Shown piece by piece: positions 10,797 through 17,991 of a DNA stretch of 64,000 nt (positions within the stretch are counted from its first letter, which is position 1; each line of letters begins with the position of its first letter). The DNA lies in assembly GCA_021776115.1 (NCBI GenBank), contig JAJFGN010000007.1:1-64000 (forward strand), given 5' to 3'. Under the pieces are notes generated by a model. It made no database searches, was not told where the DNA came from, and saw nothing but the letters and a program-made list of their open reading frames with translations. This DNA is from Kiloniellaceae bacterium. Lineage in GTDB: Bacteria; Pseudomonadota; Alphaproteobacteria; Kiloniellales; J153. A program made the translations under genes and the position numbers.

Positions 10797-11747
10797 ATGG
10801 CCTCCGATTTCCTTCTGCGCCTCGGCACGCGAGGCAGCCCGCTCGCCCTCGCCCAAGCGCAGGAGGTGCGGCGGCGTTTGGCCGCCGCGCACGGCGACCT
10901 GGCGCCGGACGGCGCGGTCGAGATCGTCACCATTAAAACCACCGGCGACCGCATTCAGGACCGCACCCTGGCCGAGGCGGGCGGCAAGGGCCTCTTCACC
11001 AAGGAGATCGAGGACGCGCTGCTGGACAAGCGCATCGACGCGGCCGTGCATTCCATGAAGGACGTGCCGACCTGGCTGCCGGACGGTCTCGGCATGGTCG
11101 CGATTTTGCCGCGCGAGGACCCGCGCGATGCCCTGTTCAGCGACCAGGGCGAAACCCTCGCCACCTTGCCGGCGGGCACGCTCGTCGGCACGGCGTCGCT
11201 GCGCCGTCAGGCCCAGGTGCTGCTGGCGCGCCCCGACCTCAAGGTCGTGCCCTTGCGCGGCAACGTTCAGACCCGCCTGCGCAAATTGGCCGAGGGCCAG
11301 GTTGGCGCGACCTTGCTGGCGCTCGCGGGGTTGAAGCGGCTGGGCGTGGCGGAGCAGGCAACCGCGATTCTGTCGCCCGAAGAGATGTTGCCCGCGGTGG
11401 CACAGGGCGCGATCGGGATCGAAACCCGCCTGGAGGATACGCGCACGCGCGGCTACATCGCCGCCCTCAACGATTCCGCGTCCGAACGCCGGGTGGCGGC
11501 GGAACGGGCGTGCCTGGAAACCCTGGACGGATCTTGCCGCACGCCGATCGCCGCGCTGTCGGAATGGCGCGCGGAGGGCGCCGGTCTCAGGCTTCGCACG
11601 CTGATTTGCCTCCCCGACGGGACCGAGGCGCACCGCGCCACGCGCGAGGGCGCGGCGGACGACGCCGAACGCCTGGGCCGCGAGGCCGGTGAGGAATTGC
11701 GCGCCGCCGCCGGCCCCGCGTTCTTCGCCGCCCTGGCCGCGTACTAG
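10797..11747 (+). CDS. hemC: Hydroxymethylbilane synthase (porphobilinogen deaminase)
   Basis: A 316-residue enzyme that condenses four porphobilinogens to hydroxymethylbilane. Diagnostic segments are [14 protein letters not shown] at the N-terminus, [42 protein letters not shown], the arginine-rich [12 protein letters not shown] and [12 protein letters not shown], and [10 protein letters not shown], whose cysteine carries the dipyrromethane cofactor. The ATG at 10797 was preferred over a TTG at 10788. hemD follows 16 bases downstream in the same direction. Confidence 0.97.
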
Positions 11748-11763: not shown

Positions 11764-14052
11764 ATGCGTGTCCTCATCACCCGGCCGGAGGAAGACGCGG
11801 CGCCCCTGGCCGCGGCCCTGCGCGCGCGCGGGCATAAGCCGAGCCAGGAACCGCTGCTGCATATCGAACCGGCAGCCGGGGTGCGCGCGCCCCTCGACCT
11901 GGACGGCGTTCAAGCGGTCCTCTTCACAAGCGCCAACGGTGTCCGCGCCTTCGCGCGCCTCAGCCAAGAGCGCGGCCTGCCGGTATTCGCCGTGGGCGAC
12001 GCCAGCGCGCGCGCCGCGCGCGAGGCCGGTTTCGCCGAGGTCGCAAGCGCGGCCGGCGATGTGGAAGACCTGGCGCGCCTCGTCTCCGCCCGGCTAAAGC
12101 CCGAGGATGGGGCGCTTTACCACGGCGCCGGGCGCCGTCTCGCGGGCGACTTGAAGGCCCGCCTGGACAGCGCCGGATTCACCCTGCGCCGCGCGGTGCT
12201 TTACGAGGCGCACGCAGCGAGCGAATTATCGTCGGCGACACGTACGGCACTTTCCACCGGCGCGATCGACGCGGTCGCTTTTTTTTCGCCCAGAACCGCC
12301 CAGACCTTCGGTGAATTAATACAGCAGGCGGATTTAGCGGTGGCTTGCGCATCGCTCGACGCGGTATGTCTAAGCGCGGCGGTCGCTGAAAAGCTGCGCG
12401 TACTCCCCTGGCGAAACGTACGTATCGCCGCTCAACCCGATCAGGACGCGCTGCTCGATTGCGTTGATAGCCTGGCCGGGCGAAACGAGGCCACCGTCGT
12501 GGAGAGAGCGATGTCCACACAAGACGACAGTTCCCAAGACAAGGTCGGTGCCGAAGACAGCGGCGGCGCACCCGGAGCGGAATCGGCGGCGCACGAAATT
12601 ATCGCCAAGTTCGGCGGTATTCGGCCCATGGCGAACAAGCTTGGCGTCGCGGTCAGCACGGTCCAAGGCTGGCGTGAGCGGGCCTCGATCCCGGCCGCGC
12701 GGCACGGGCAAATCCAAGCCGCGGCCGATACCCACAAGATCGACATCGACGCCGAGGTGCTCGCGGCCAGCGATCACGCGCCGGAAGGCCACGCGCCCGA
12801 GGGTCACGCGCCAGGGGGTCACGGCGAGGATAAGGGTCACGGCGAAGCCGAGGGCGTCCCGGCCGCGTCCTCGCGCTGGATACCCGAGAGCGGCCGAACC
12901 CAAGAAAGCGAAACCGCGCCCCTAAGCGCCGAACCGGCGGAGACCACGGAAACTATTGCGCCAAACCGGACCGCGCGCGGCGGCTCCTGGACCGGAGCCT
13001 TCCTGATCGCGGCGGTCATCTTCACGGTCGCGGCGGGCGGCACCGTCCTGACCCGCGAGGCCTGGATGCCGTACCTCGCCCCCACACCAACCGAAACCAC
13101 GCCGGCAGAGGACCCCAACGCCGCGCGGATCGAGGCCTTGGAACGCCGCCTGGCGGATCTCACCGCCAAGGTATCCCAAGCGCCGGGCGAAGACCCGAAT
13201 ACCGCCCGGATCGAGGCCTTGGAAGGCCGGCTGTCCGATCTCGCCTCGCAGCCGTCCGGCGCCGCGGGCGAGGCGAATCTGAACGAGGCCCGCGCCGAGA
13301 TCGCCAAGCTGCGCCGCGACCTGGACGACCTTGCCTCGCGGTTGGAGTCGGTGGGTGAGATCGCGCGCGCCGGCGGGGATTCGGAGCAGCTTGGGGCCGC
13401 CTTGGCGCGGATCGACGCGGGCAAGGCCGAGACCGACCGCAGCCTCGCCGCTTTGCAGGCGCAAATCGCGTCCCTGGCCGAAACGCCCGCGCGCGCGCCC
13501 GCACCGGCCGGCGGGGCGGCAATGACCCTGGCGGTCCTGCAAATGCGCGATGCCTTGCGCGGGGCGGAACCCTTCGCGACAGCCTTGAACACGCTCGACT
13601 CGCTTGCGGCCGATTCGACAAGCGCCGACGCCGCTGTATTGCGCGAGGCGATCGCGCCGCTGCGGCCCTATGCCACCGCCGGCGCCCCCAGCCTTGAGTC
13701 GCTTCAGGCCGCCTTTCCGGCGGTGGCGCGCGCGGTTATCGCGAAATCGCGCGGCGGGCAGGGCGAAGGGTTCCTGGCGAACGCGCTTCGGCGCCTGTCC
13801 GGCCTGGTATCGGTGCGCCCGCACGGCCCGGTCGAAGGCGATAGCGTGGAAGCCGTCGTGGCCCGCGCCGAAGCGCACCTAGAGGCCGGCGATCTGACCT
13901 CGGCGCTGCGCGAGCTCGATAGCCTAAGCGGCCCGGCCTCGGACGCCGCCGCCGGATGGCGCGCGGAAGCGGAAGCCCGGCTCACGGTTCAGGCCGCCCT
14001 TGCGCGTCTGGGCGGGTTGCTCGCGGCCGGCCGCGTCGCCGGTCGGGACTAA
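11764..14052 (+). CDS. hemD: Fused uroporphyrinogen-III synthase / mitofilin (Mic60-like) protein
   Basis: One uninterrupted frame of 762 codons joins two genes that are separate in most Alphaproteobacteria. Residues 1 to about 245 are HemD ([36 protein letters not shown]), which cyclises hydroxymethylbilane to uroporphyrinogen III. Residues 278-333 form a helix-turn-helix-like segment ([22 protein letters not shown]). Residues about 337-362 are a His/Gly/Glu-rich linker with repeated HAPEG units. A transmembrane helix follows at about 409-430 ([15 protein letters not shown]), then a heptad-rich coiled coil (about 450-573) and a C-terminal helical domain typical of COG4223 mitofilins. An internal ATG at 12511 has GGAGAG eight bases upstream, so a separate mitofilin may also be made. 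No stop codon separates the parts; a sequencing error cannot be excluded. Confidence 0.85.
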
Positions 14053-14064
14053 GGATCGCAAACG

Positions 14065-15492
14065 ATGATCCGGGTGCTTTGGTTCGCGTTCAAGCTGGCG
14101 GTCCTGGTCGCGCTCGCCTATTGGCTGGCCGAGCGGCCGGGCGAAGTTTCCATCGATTGGCTGGGATACCGGATCGAAACCTCGGTCGGGATTCTGCTCG
14201 CGGCGATTGTTCTGGTCGCGGGGCTCTCGGCGCTGTCCTACCGCATCTGGCGGTTCCTGCGCCGCTCGCCGCGCAGCCTGGGCCAAAGCCGGCAGGCGAG
14301 CCGGCGCAAGCGCGGCTACAAGGCGCTCACGCAGGGCATGGTCGCCGTCGCGGCCGGCGAGGTCGACGAGGCCGCGCGCCAGGCCCGGCGCGCCGACTCG
14401 CTACTGGAAGAGCCGCCCTTGACGATGCTGCTCTCGGCCCAAGCGGCGCAACTCAATGGCGACGAGGCGGCGGCCAAGCGGTATTTCTCCGCCATGTTGG
14501 AAGATCCCGAGACCCGCTTTCTGGGTTTGCGCGGTCTTCTAACCCAGGCCCTGCGCGACGGCGACGAGCCGCAGGCCTTGGACTATGTGCGCCAGGCCCA
14601 CGTCCTACGCCCGCGCACGCCCTGGGTGCTGACCTCGCTTTTCGATCTGAGCGAACGCTGCGGCGATCTGGAAACGGCGGAGCGGGCCTTGATCGAGGCC
14701 GCGAAGATCAAGGTCCTGCCCGCGCCCGAGGCCGGCCGCAAGCGCGCGGTCATCCTGTTGGAACGCGCCGAAGCGGCGGCGCGGCGCGGCGACCGCCCGG
14801 CCGCCCTGGCGCATGCGCGCGAGGCCAACAAGCTGGCCCCGGATCTGATCCCGGGCGCGGCGATGCTGGCAGAACAGCTAATCGCGGGCGGACAGTTGCG
14901 CAAGGCCGCCAAGGTATTGGAGAAAGCCTGGGCGGCGGGCCCGCATCCCGACCTCGCGGCGCTCTATCTCAAGACTCAGACCAGCGGCGACGACATCGAG
15001 CGTTTGAAACGCCTGGGCCTCCTGACCGCCAAGCGGCCCGATCATCCGGAAAGCCATCTGGTTTTGGCGCGCGCCGCCCTGAAAGCGCGGCTTTGGGGCG
15101 AGGCGCGGCGTCACATCAAGGCCGCGGCCGGGCCGGAGGGCCTGGAGCACGCGCCCAGCGATTCCGTGTGCCGCCTGATGGCCGAGCTGGAGGAGCAGGA
15201 GAACGGCGACACCGCGCAGGCCCGCGTTTGGCTGACCCGCTCCGCCGGGGCGCCCAAGGACCCGGCCTGGGTCTGCACCTCCTGCGGCGCGGTTTCGGCG
15301 CGTTGGAGCGCACGCTGCGGCGCCTGCAAAAGCTTCGACTCCCTGGCCTGGCAACCGCCGCCCCGGGTCGCGCCCGCCTTAAGCCATGACGACAGCGATG
15401 ACAGGGGCAGTGGCAGGGGCGATGGCGGGGGCGGAACCGAAATCGACGCCCGGTTCGAGGCCGACCCGGCGCTGGCCCTGCCCAAGGCCTGA
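14065..15492 (+). CDS. hemY: HemY-type heme biosynthesis-associated TPR membrane protein
   Basis: A 475-residue inner-membrane protein with two N-terminal hydrophobic helices (LWFAFKLAVLVALAYWLA and GILLAAIVLVAGLSAL), a basic cytoplasmic linker, and a long helical TPR-type region (residues about 85-420) with repeats such as AARQARRADSLL and ALEYVRQAHVLRP-like units. Near the C-terminus a zinc-ribbon or rubredoxin-like module is visible: WVCTSCG, then CGACKSFDSLAW. This is the HemY N-domain family, conserved in heme clusters but not itself an enzyme. It starts 12 bases after the hemD-mitofilin frame, in the order typical of Alphaproteobacteria. Confidence 0.9.
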   Translation: MIRVLWFAFKLAVLVALAYWLAERPGEVSIDWLGYRIETSVGILLAAIVLVAGLSALSYRIWRFLRRSPRSLGQSRQASRRKRGYKALTQGMVAVAAGEVDEAARQARRADSLLEEPPLTMLLSAQAAQLNGDEAAAKRYFSAMLEDPETRFLGLRGLLTQALRDGDEPQALDYVRQAHVLRPRTPWVLTSLFDLSERCGDLETAERALIEAAKIKVLPAPEAGRKRAVILLERAEAAARRGDRPAALAHAREANKLAPDLIPGAAMLAEQLIAGGQLRKAAKVLEKAWAAGPHPDLAALYLKTQTSGDDIERLKRLGLLTAKRPDHPESHLVLARAALKARLWGEARRHIKAAAGPEGLEHAPSDSVCRLMAELEEQENGDTAQARVWLTRSAGAPKDPAWVCTSCGAVSARWSARCGACKSFDSLAWQPPPRVAPALSHDDSDDRGSGRGDGGGGTEIDARFEADPALALPKA

Positions 15493-15653: not shown

Positions 15654-15729
15654 GCCGCCTTAGCTCAGTTGGTAGAGCACAGCATTCGTAATGCTGGGGT
15701 CGGGTGTTCGAGTCACCCAGGCGGCACCA
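15654..15729 (+). tRNA. tRNA-Thr (anticodon CGT)
   Basis: A complete cloverleaf can be folded: acceptor GCCGCCT paired with AGGCGGC, D arm GCTC/GAGC, anticodon stem CAGCA/TGCTG enclosing the loop TTCGTAA (anticodon CGT, reading ACG), and T arm GGGTG TTCGAGT CACCC. The discriminator is A and CCA is encoded. It marks the boundary between housekeeping sequence and the accessory stretch downstream, so its 3' end is a plausible integration site, although no second copy of the tRNA end was found. Confidence 0.97.
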
Positions 15730-16611: not shown

Positions 16612-17991
16612 ATGGATGATGACGACAGGTCAGTGCGCACCAAGCTCTTTATTTCCAAAGCAACGCCGGGAGACGACGCGTTTGCCCTGTGGATCGCACC
16701 TCGGCTTGAAAATGCTGGATACGAGGTTTTCGCAGATATTCTGCACCTCGATACCGGAGATAGTTGGCGTCGTAAACTGACGACGTCCCTGCAAAATGAA
16801 TCCGCCAAATTGTTGTTATGTTGCAGCAATGAGACTCTCAGTCGCGAAGGCGTCTTTCAGGAAATCGGCATAGCAGCAGCTTTATCCAAAAGTCTAGACG
16901 ATCAAAATTTCATTCTCCCGCTCAAACTCAGGAGTTACAAACCGGTCTTTGGGATCGTCGATTTGCAATACATCGACTTTGAAAAAGGCTGGGCGGATGG
17001 GTTAGCAAAACTCCTAAAATCGCTCGACAGCCAAAAGGTACCAAAGAAGTCAAAGCCTCGAATTCAGCCTGAATGGGCTGCCTATCATCAACGACGCGCA
17101 ATTAAGCTTCTCAACGAACCAGAAGTACTTACTTCTAATTGGCTTCGCATTCTGTCGGTTCCCGATGAGGTTCGGTATATCGTACCGAAGGGGGCTCTTG
17201 AGCAATCCCGTCTAAAGAAAGCGAGTGCAGGTTTTCCATATCCAATTATTCCCTATGGCGAGGGGTTCATTACCTTTGCCAATTCTTTCGACGCCGATGA
17301 ACATTTTTCATCGATGGCTACCTTCGAATATGCGGGGGAAATTAAGTTTTCCGAGTTTTTGGAGGACGGATATGAAGCAATAGGAGTTGCTGATCGTGAG
17401 GCTCGTAACATGGTTGTCAACTTGTTGCGCCAAGCCTGGGAAATACATTGCAAGAATGAGGGGTTTTATGCCCACGAGTTTTCCAATGGCTTAGCGCAAA
17501 TCGTAGGTCACGAAAAAATGGACCTTGGGAAACGTATTCCCTGGGGCAAACAGGGGCAGCGTAGAAACTCGATGCTGCGAAATACTGCGCGCGGCAAAGT
17601 GTGGGAATATGGCGTAAGTGCCCGTGCCCATCTTTTTCCATTCCCACATTACCGCCTAAAAAGCCGCGTCTTGTTTTTGGACGTGGAGGAAGATGAAACC
17701 ACGACGATTATTGACAGCTTTCGCGTGCAGCACCGCCTGCGCCGCTCTATTGCTGGTTCCTGGCGCAATAAGGCTTGGCATGGGCGCCTTATGGCCTTCA
17801 TGGAAGTACTCGCCGGTGAAAGCCCCTACGTTGCTCTTCCGGTCCGGAGTGACGCGCATATCTACGTTGACGGAATGCCCATTCAAGCCACGTCACCCGT
17901 TACCGCACGGCAAACGAACAAACTTGGCGAGGACGGCGAAGAGATCGATGTGACGACCTTGGGTGGTCACTTTGACGAGGAGGAGGCCTGA
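16612..17991 (+). CDS. TIR-APAZ protein (effector subunit of a SPARTA-type short Argonaute system)
   Basis: 459 residues. Residues 1 to about 140 form a TIR domain: KLFISKATPGDDAFALWIA is the first strand and helix, ENAGYEVFADI the second strand, and ESAKLLLCCSNETL leads to VFQEIGIAAAL, where Glu84 occupies the position of the catalytic NADase glutamate. Residues about 160-459 are the APAZ region (analog of PAZ), the part that docks onto short Argonautes; EWAAYHQRRAIKLL begins it. In characterised SPARTA systems guide-directed binding of invader DNA causes oligomerisation and NAD(P)+ depletion, killing or arresting the infected cell. The stop overlaps the Argonaute start as TGATG, and AGGAGG at 17981-17986 serves as its ribosome binding site. 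Base composition is clearly more AT-rich than the flanking housekeeping genes. Confidence 0.92.
   Translation: MDDDDRSVRTKLFISKATPGDDAFALWIAPRLENAGYEVFADILHLDTGDSWRRKLTTSLQNESAKLLLCCSNETLSREGVFQEIGIAAALSKSLDDQNFILPLKLRSYKPVFGIVDLQYIDFEKGWADGLAKLLKSLDSQKVPKKSKPRIQPEWAAYHQRRAIKLLNEPEVLTSNWLRILSVPDEVRYIVPKGALEQSRLKKASAGFPYPIIPYGEGFITFANSFDADEHFSSMATFEYAGEIKFSEFLEDGYEAIGVADREARNMVVNLLRQAWEIHCKNEGFYAHEFSNGLAQIVGHEKMDLGKRIPWGKQGQRRNSMLRNTARGKVWEYGVSARAHLFPFPHYRLKSRVLFLDVEEDETTTIIDSFRVQHRLRRSIAGSWRNKAWHGRLMAFMEVLAGESPYVALPVRSDAHIYVDGMPIQATSPVTARQTNKLGEDGEEIDVTTLGGHFDEEEA

Follow-up and report, generated by a model that had tools for sequence, protein, structure and literature searches.

HemD (uroporphyrinogen-III synthase) and a mitofilin (Mic60-like) protein are encoded by a single open reading frame in the 64,000-nucleotide stretch of a Kiloniellaceae genome analysed here (hereafter, the window), and comparison with related genomes confirms that this in-frame fusion is real, inherited and recurrent. 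Judged from the sequences of the related loci, it appears to be an operon fusion that recurs with a conserved internal start.

Architecture and genomic context of the fused frame

That no stop codon separates the two domains had been proposed in a preliminary description of this DNA, and we can corroborate it: sequence and open-reading-frame checks found the frame uninterrupted from its ATG to its stop codon, and both domains score above their curated cut-offs (Table 1). The HEM4 match is nearly full-length (profile positions 3–230 of 231). The mitofilin match covers the C-terminal part of the PF09731 profile (positions 442–606 of 614), and a transmembrane helix predicted from hydropathy precedes it. 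In the genome, which is 98.7% complete, the fused frame is the sole match found for mitofilin (PF09731) and also for HEM4 (PF02602), so that the fusion presumably supplies HemD; its HemD domain is likely to be enzymatically active. A helix-turn-helix (HTH) domain at residues 277–328 had gone unnoticed in the preliminary description.

Table 1 Features of the fused frame and of its neighbours in the window
Feature	Coordinates	Strand	Evidence and remarks
hemC, hydroxymethylbilane synthase, upstream neighbour	10797..11747	+	TIGR00212 338.6 bits, cut-off 164; own stop TAG 11745–11747
Whole fused frame, HemD–HTH–TM–mitofilin	11764..14052	+	762 aa; ATG 11764, stop 14050–14052
HemD (uroporphyrinogen-III synthase) domain	11806..12456	+	Residues 15–231; PF02602 HEM4 142.3–145.8 bits, cut-off 27.5
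GGAGAG, Shine-Dalgarno-like site of the internal start	12501..12506	+	GGAG kept in 4/4 genus members
Internal in-frame ATG, proposed start of a short Mic60-like product	12511..12513	+	Residue 250; 513 aa
Cro-like helix-turn-helix (carph-isopro, NF046037)	12592..12747	+	Residues 277–328; 63–67.4 bits, cut-off 38
Predicted transmembrane (TM) helix	12994..13050	+	Residues 411–429; highest 19-residue Kyte-Doolittle window, 2.17
Probable coiled coil, approximate limits	13126..13503	+	Inferred from weak matches to SMC/Rad50/RacA coiled-coil models, ~residues 451–574
Mitofilin domain	13519..14001	+	Residues 586–746; PF09731 56.2–59.1 bits, cut-off 27.4
hemY-type TPR membrane protein, downstream neighbour	14065..15492	+	PF07219 HemY_N 99.3 bits

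The ATG of the fused frame starts 16 bases past the hemC stop codon, and on the minus strand next to hemC lie two genes that, by their sequence, we take to be tsaD and gpsA. A tsaD–gpsA operon head to head with a hemC–hemD–mitofilin(IMMP)–hemY operon is described for Alphaproteobacteria in the accessible part of PMC7641849, where the mitofilin of that operon is called a diverged HemX homologue; the hemD–mic60–hemY neighbourhood is already published there. The window has these genes in the same order: hemC, hemD, mitofilin and hemY run on the plus strand, after tsaD and gpsA on the minus strand. In contrast, that part of the article lists hemD and mitofilin separately, whereas the window has them in a single frame with a putative nested start.

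Distribution of the fusion among relatives

We searched 143 genomes, the window's own included; 122 matched, and DNA was examined for 94 of them (95 loci), the rest being mostly weaker matches. Duplicates were removed (13 loci by hand, then 28 exact HemD duplicates), and L110 (a placeholder region) and L068 (G060, no HemD) were left out. Six genomes (G004, G006, G007, G016, G029 and G058) gave no HemD match in a search run without a positive control and were not scored as lacking the gene. Named records, the best 80 of 265 relatives picked by HTH patterns and score, are biased to HTH-bearing, high-scoring loci; they were kept out of the prevalence figures and included in the 43-locus start test and in the tree described below.

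Three other genomes of the window's genus have the same uninterrupted frame at 64–72% identity, and all six loci found in the family are fused, a count that stands apart from the family genomes G004, G006 and G007, which gave no HemD match. Of the 55 loci examined across the order, 19 have the fusion and 36 have separate genes; in the rest of the class sample, 9 of 40 are fused and 28 separate, while three have no mitofilin in the DNA piece examined. The 147 distinct loci total 51 fused, 93 separate and 3 undetermined. The comparison of homologs for a stop codon between the genes thus gave a uniform answer within the family and many separate loci elsewhere. The preliminary description had called the two genes normally separate, and separation is indeed the commoner state (36 of the 55 order loci), but the fusion is recurrent rather than singular. 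It had also held that relatives with a stop codon between the genes would tell against the fusion; many relatives have one, and the fusion in the window stands.

Since the window is a contig of a draft genome in 85 contigs, a sequencing or assembly error might have deleted a real stop codon. However, the three genus members and two sister-genus loci share the open frame at 40–72% identity by segment (in one of the latter, from G008, HemD is cut by the contig end), and isolates elsewhere are fused too. Among the best 80 of 265 relatives, fused loci occur in the cultured strains Ferruginivarius sediminum, Inquilinus limosus DSM 16000, Aestuariispira insulae, Curvivirga aplysinae, Hwanghaeella grinnelliae, Marivibrio halodurans and Tistlia consotensis (same DNA as L018). 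These comparative data make an error so very unlikely that we give it practically no credence, and it was rejected on the strength of the fused relatives and isolates.

Apart from these counts, G047 was found to have, beside its HTH-type locus, another hemD, with a mitofilin that lacks the HTH behind it (L057, G047:C170); this may be a copy or contamination.

A conserved candidate start inside the fused frame

An internal ATG at 12511 preceded by GGAGAG had been suggested to give both long and short products, and the support that we can add to this suggestion is comparative. The linker between HemD and the HTH is hardly conserved, a single methionine excepted, and GGAG...ATG is kept in all four members of the window's genus. 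Among 43 fused HTH-type loci, 39 have an in-frame ATG in the linker, in 32 of them with a Shine-Dalgarno-like site; in a control stretch of equal length just after the HTH, the corresponding figures for the same 43 loci are 11 and 3. The definition of the site was loose (any of seven motifs of 4–6 bases at a spacing of 4–11), and a strict version used four motifs.

Under the loose definition, a site precedes 34 of 48 linker ATGs versus 24 of 227 other in-frame ATGs (Fisher p 4e-17, a value that, like the others given here, overstates independence because the loci are related, and is not a true probability). Out-of-frame linker ATGs have a site in 4 of 51 cases. The excess persisted when loci were thinned at 70% HemD identity (22/33 linker versus 17/159 other ATGs, p 7e-11) and at 60% (15/23 versus 14/120). 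With the strict motifs it was smaller, at 18/48 linker versus 21/227 other ATGs (p 5e-6), and, after additional thinning at 60%, 8/23 versus 12/120 (p 0.005). Separate HTH-type loci, in which a start is certainly needed, have a site in 48 of 72 cases by the loose and 22 of 72 by the strict definition, compared with 32 of 39 and 18 of 39 for the fused HTH-type loci that have a linker ATG. By this measure, the internal starts compare well with genuine ones.

The linker ATG is missing in four of the 43 fused HTH-type loci: L016, L070, L124 and L130. In L124 and L130, the linker contains a GTG whose site is weak; the sole candidate in L070 (from G005) is a GTG with a site at the limit of the permitted spacing, and in L016 (from G008) there is none. 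L070 and L016, which belong to the sister genus in the same family, are apparently obligate HemD–Mic60 fusions that have lost the internal ATG. Eight further fused loci lack the HTH and stand outside the start test. Within 70 bases of the HemD end, an ATG or GTG accompanied by a site is present in five of these and an ATG lacking a site in two; one has neither.

Gain and loss of the fusion

To follow the fusion across relatives, we used a quick maximum-likelihood tree of 132 loci built on the HemD, HTH and mitofilin columns; it is unrooted and carries SH-aLRT support only, which, the tool warns, should be trusted less when a quick tree has long rows. On this tree, the label fused or separate changes at least 20 times, and at least eight changes are forced by branches with support of 95% or more. 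All six loci of the family fall into a single fused clade (97% support), and sister species differ at two well-supported places, where G043 is fused and G041 separate, and G035 is fused and G047 separate.

In the 93 separate loci, the two genes lie in the same frame in 42 cases and in the other two frames in 26 and 25. In 28 of the 93, the frames are in register with exactly one stop codon, 3 bases, between them (Azospirillum is over-represented among these single-stop loci; the set not picked by HTH patterns has 10 in 64), so the step between fused and separate can be small.

The preliminary description saw in the fusion a tie between haem synthesis and the origin of MICOS-type proteins. This goes too far: the operon link is already published, and the fusion state, having changed at least 20 times on the tree, reveals little of the ancestor. 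On its own, the fusion is no proof of a haem-synthesis origin of crista proteins.

Proposed products of the fused frame and alternative explanations

We consider it probable that the frame is a nested gene from which both a membrane-tethered HemD–Mic60 and a free Mic60 are made. With loss of the hemD stop codon, hemD and the adjacent mic60 would have become one frame, in which the old mic60 start, consisting of the Shine-Dalgarno site and the ATG at 12511, would have been kept. Ribosomes starting at 11764 would make the long protein only; as no stop codon intervenes, each HemD made from this start would stay attached to the remainder of the protein unless later cleaved. All HemD would then be a cytoplasmic domain joined, via the HTH and one transmembrane helix, to a coiled coil and a mitofilin domain in the periplasm. 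The frame and the predicted helix together point to the tethering of HemD at the membrane, an idea already put forward in the preliminary description. Ribosomes entering at 12511 would make a free HTH–TM–Mic60 of 513 residues, and because the kept internal start would add this product, Mic60 could exceed HemD. The expected effect is an excess of Mic60 over HemD, with HemD held at the membrane. We infer the production of both products, the topology and this effect from sequence.

Two other explanations deserve weight. In one, the fusion is obligate, the long HemD–HTH–TM–Mic60 is the only product, the internal ATG being a remnant. A ribosome from 11764 meets no stop codon until 14050, and the sister-genus loci of G005 and G008 keep the fused frame without the internal ATG, so a fused-only state seems to exist next door. 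For the window, we nevertheless think this distinctly unlikely, given that the ATG and its Shine-Dalgarno-like site are present in 4/4 members of its own genus and that in the 43 fused loci such starts occur far above background, at a rate like that of the starts of separate genes. In young fusions, the internal start could be a fossil.

The other explanation, neutral drift of the stop codon, concerns the benefit of the fusion and is compatible with a nested gene. The fusion would have no role, a missing stop being tolerated as HemD and the Mic60 N-terminus are both cytoplasmic, and HemD may be cut free afterwards. The changes of state on the tree (at least 20), a fused and a separate sister species (G043 and G041) and the single stop codon that parts in-register frames in 28/93 separate loci (10/64 outside the HTH-pattern set) all speak for drift, whereas the stability of the fusion in the window's family, a clade of six with 97% support, speaks against it. 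We find drift nearly as credible as its opposite. The many switches favour tolerance of the tether at least as much as a benefit to haem synthesis.

If the fusion works, HemD tolerates or benefits from a position at the membrane beside a crista-type protein. Related and partly cultured bacteria offer a natural series: the genes may be separate, fused with a nested internal start, or fused without such a start and then apparently obligately so. The series bears on the question of what Mic60 has to do with haem synthesis.

A Cro-like domain on Mic60

The HTH of the fused protein matches the carph-isopro domain (NF046037) above the curated cut-off. When a 34-row profile of the HTH was compared with solved structures, Cro (3bd1) was matched with an E-value of 1.2e-4 and P22 Cro (1rzs) with 0.008. 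The predicted fold (pLDDT 89) agrees, with Cro chains at ranks 1–7 and TM-scores of about 0.6, the best Foldseek E-value being only 0.094. The invariant residues of the domain include the presumed recognition helix. Of the 55 order loci, 53 have an HTH ahead of the Mic60 transmembrane helix, as do 10 of the 40 class loci, regardless of whether hemD is fused, and the domain therefore belongs to the Mic60 of this branch rather than to the fusion. It is a testable lead of its own on how bacterial Mic60 connects to the rest of the cell.

RodZ and CadC are membrane-bound HTH proteins. The predicted arrangement here, a cytoplasmic HTH followed by a single transmembrane helix, is like that of proteins of the RodZ and CadC type, with an HTH that is nearest to Cro. 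It is conceivable, if improbable, that the Mic60 of Rhodospirillales-like bacteria binds DNA from the membrane, that its HTH ties the chromosome or the hem promoter to the inner membrane, and that the nested hemD fusion determines how much Mic60 carries the enzyme relative to the free form. A single polypeptide would then combine haem-precursor synthesis, membrane shaping and gene control. The tsaD–hemC intergenic stretch, where an operator for the HTH might lie, was inspected by eye in three of six loci, and no palindrome was seen.

The literature searched contained no report of a HemD–Mic60 fusion or of an HTH on Mic60; the main Mic60 papers lie outside that search and could mention the fusion. 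Literature searches for carph-isopro and for mic60 together with hemX found no paper. PMC6412816, in which mic60 and helix-turn-helix occur together, was set aside, as helix-turn-helix there denotes a CHCH domain.

Relation to Mic60 and HemX

A 32-row profile of the mitofilin region matched the solved MIC60 domain 7pv1 with an E-value of 3.8e-11. With the mitofilin model, Foldseek gave no match below an E-value of 0.001, and a second fold comparison placed 7pv1_D at rank 10 (Z 7.2, rmsd 2.0 over 52 residues, 40% identity), its Z-score being tied with those of unrelated helical bundles. Alphaproteobacterial Mic60 shares with the fused protein a transmembrane helix, a probable coiled coil, a C-terminal mitofilin domain and an adjoining HemY-type TPR protein. 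The fused protein differs in its additional N-terminal parts, the Cro-like HTH and HemD. To our knowledge, no Mic60 with an N-terminal Cro-like HTH and HemD is known in print. The role of alphaproteobacterial Mic60 in membrane shaping is reviewed in PMC12136173.

HemX occupies the same operon slot in other Proteobacteria. The fused protein resembles fused HemD/HemX (NF005411, PRK06975) in that HemD is followed in frame by a membrane protein, the architecture of the latter being taken from the name of the model. An assignment to NF005411 was rejected, since the score was 31.6 bits against a cut-off of 414 and covered only HemD residues 1–108. The HemX domain PF04375 had no match in this genome, whereas the E. 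coli control matched. Whole-protein profiles of HemX and alphaproteobacterial mitofilin align end to end with a probability of 85% (reversed control, 1%), compared with 13% for HemX against the mitofilin domain alone. The evidence for homology between HemX and mitofilin is suggestive; placing the two in the same family was rejected, as PF04375 is absent from the genome and the profile match involves the whole protein and not the domain alone. Within a sample of 30 HemX frames, the HemD profile found no HemD–HemX fusion.

Other features at the downstream end of the operon

At its C-terminus, the hemY-type protein has a LapB-like zinc ribbon (15268–15345) that scores 24.7 bits, just below the cut-off of 25.7. 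Between the hem operon and a gene for a TIR-domain protein lies a tRNA-Thr (CGT) at 15654–15729, a possible insertion site for defence genes. The TIR-domain protein (16612–17991) matches PADLOC models named Aga_TIR-PNTD1-PNTD2 at 499.7 bits, and we presume it to be the partner protein of a short-Argonaute defence system.
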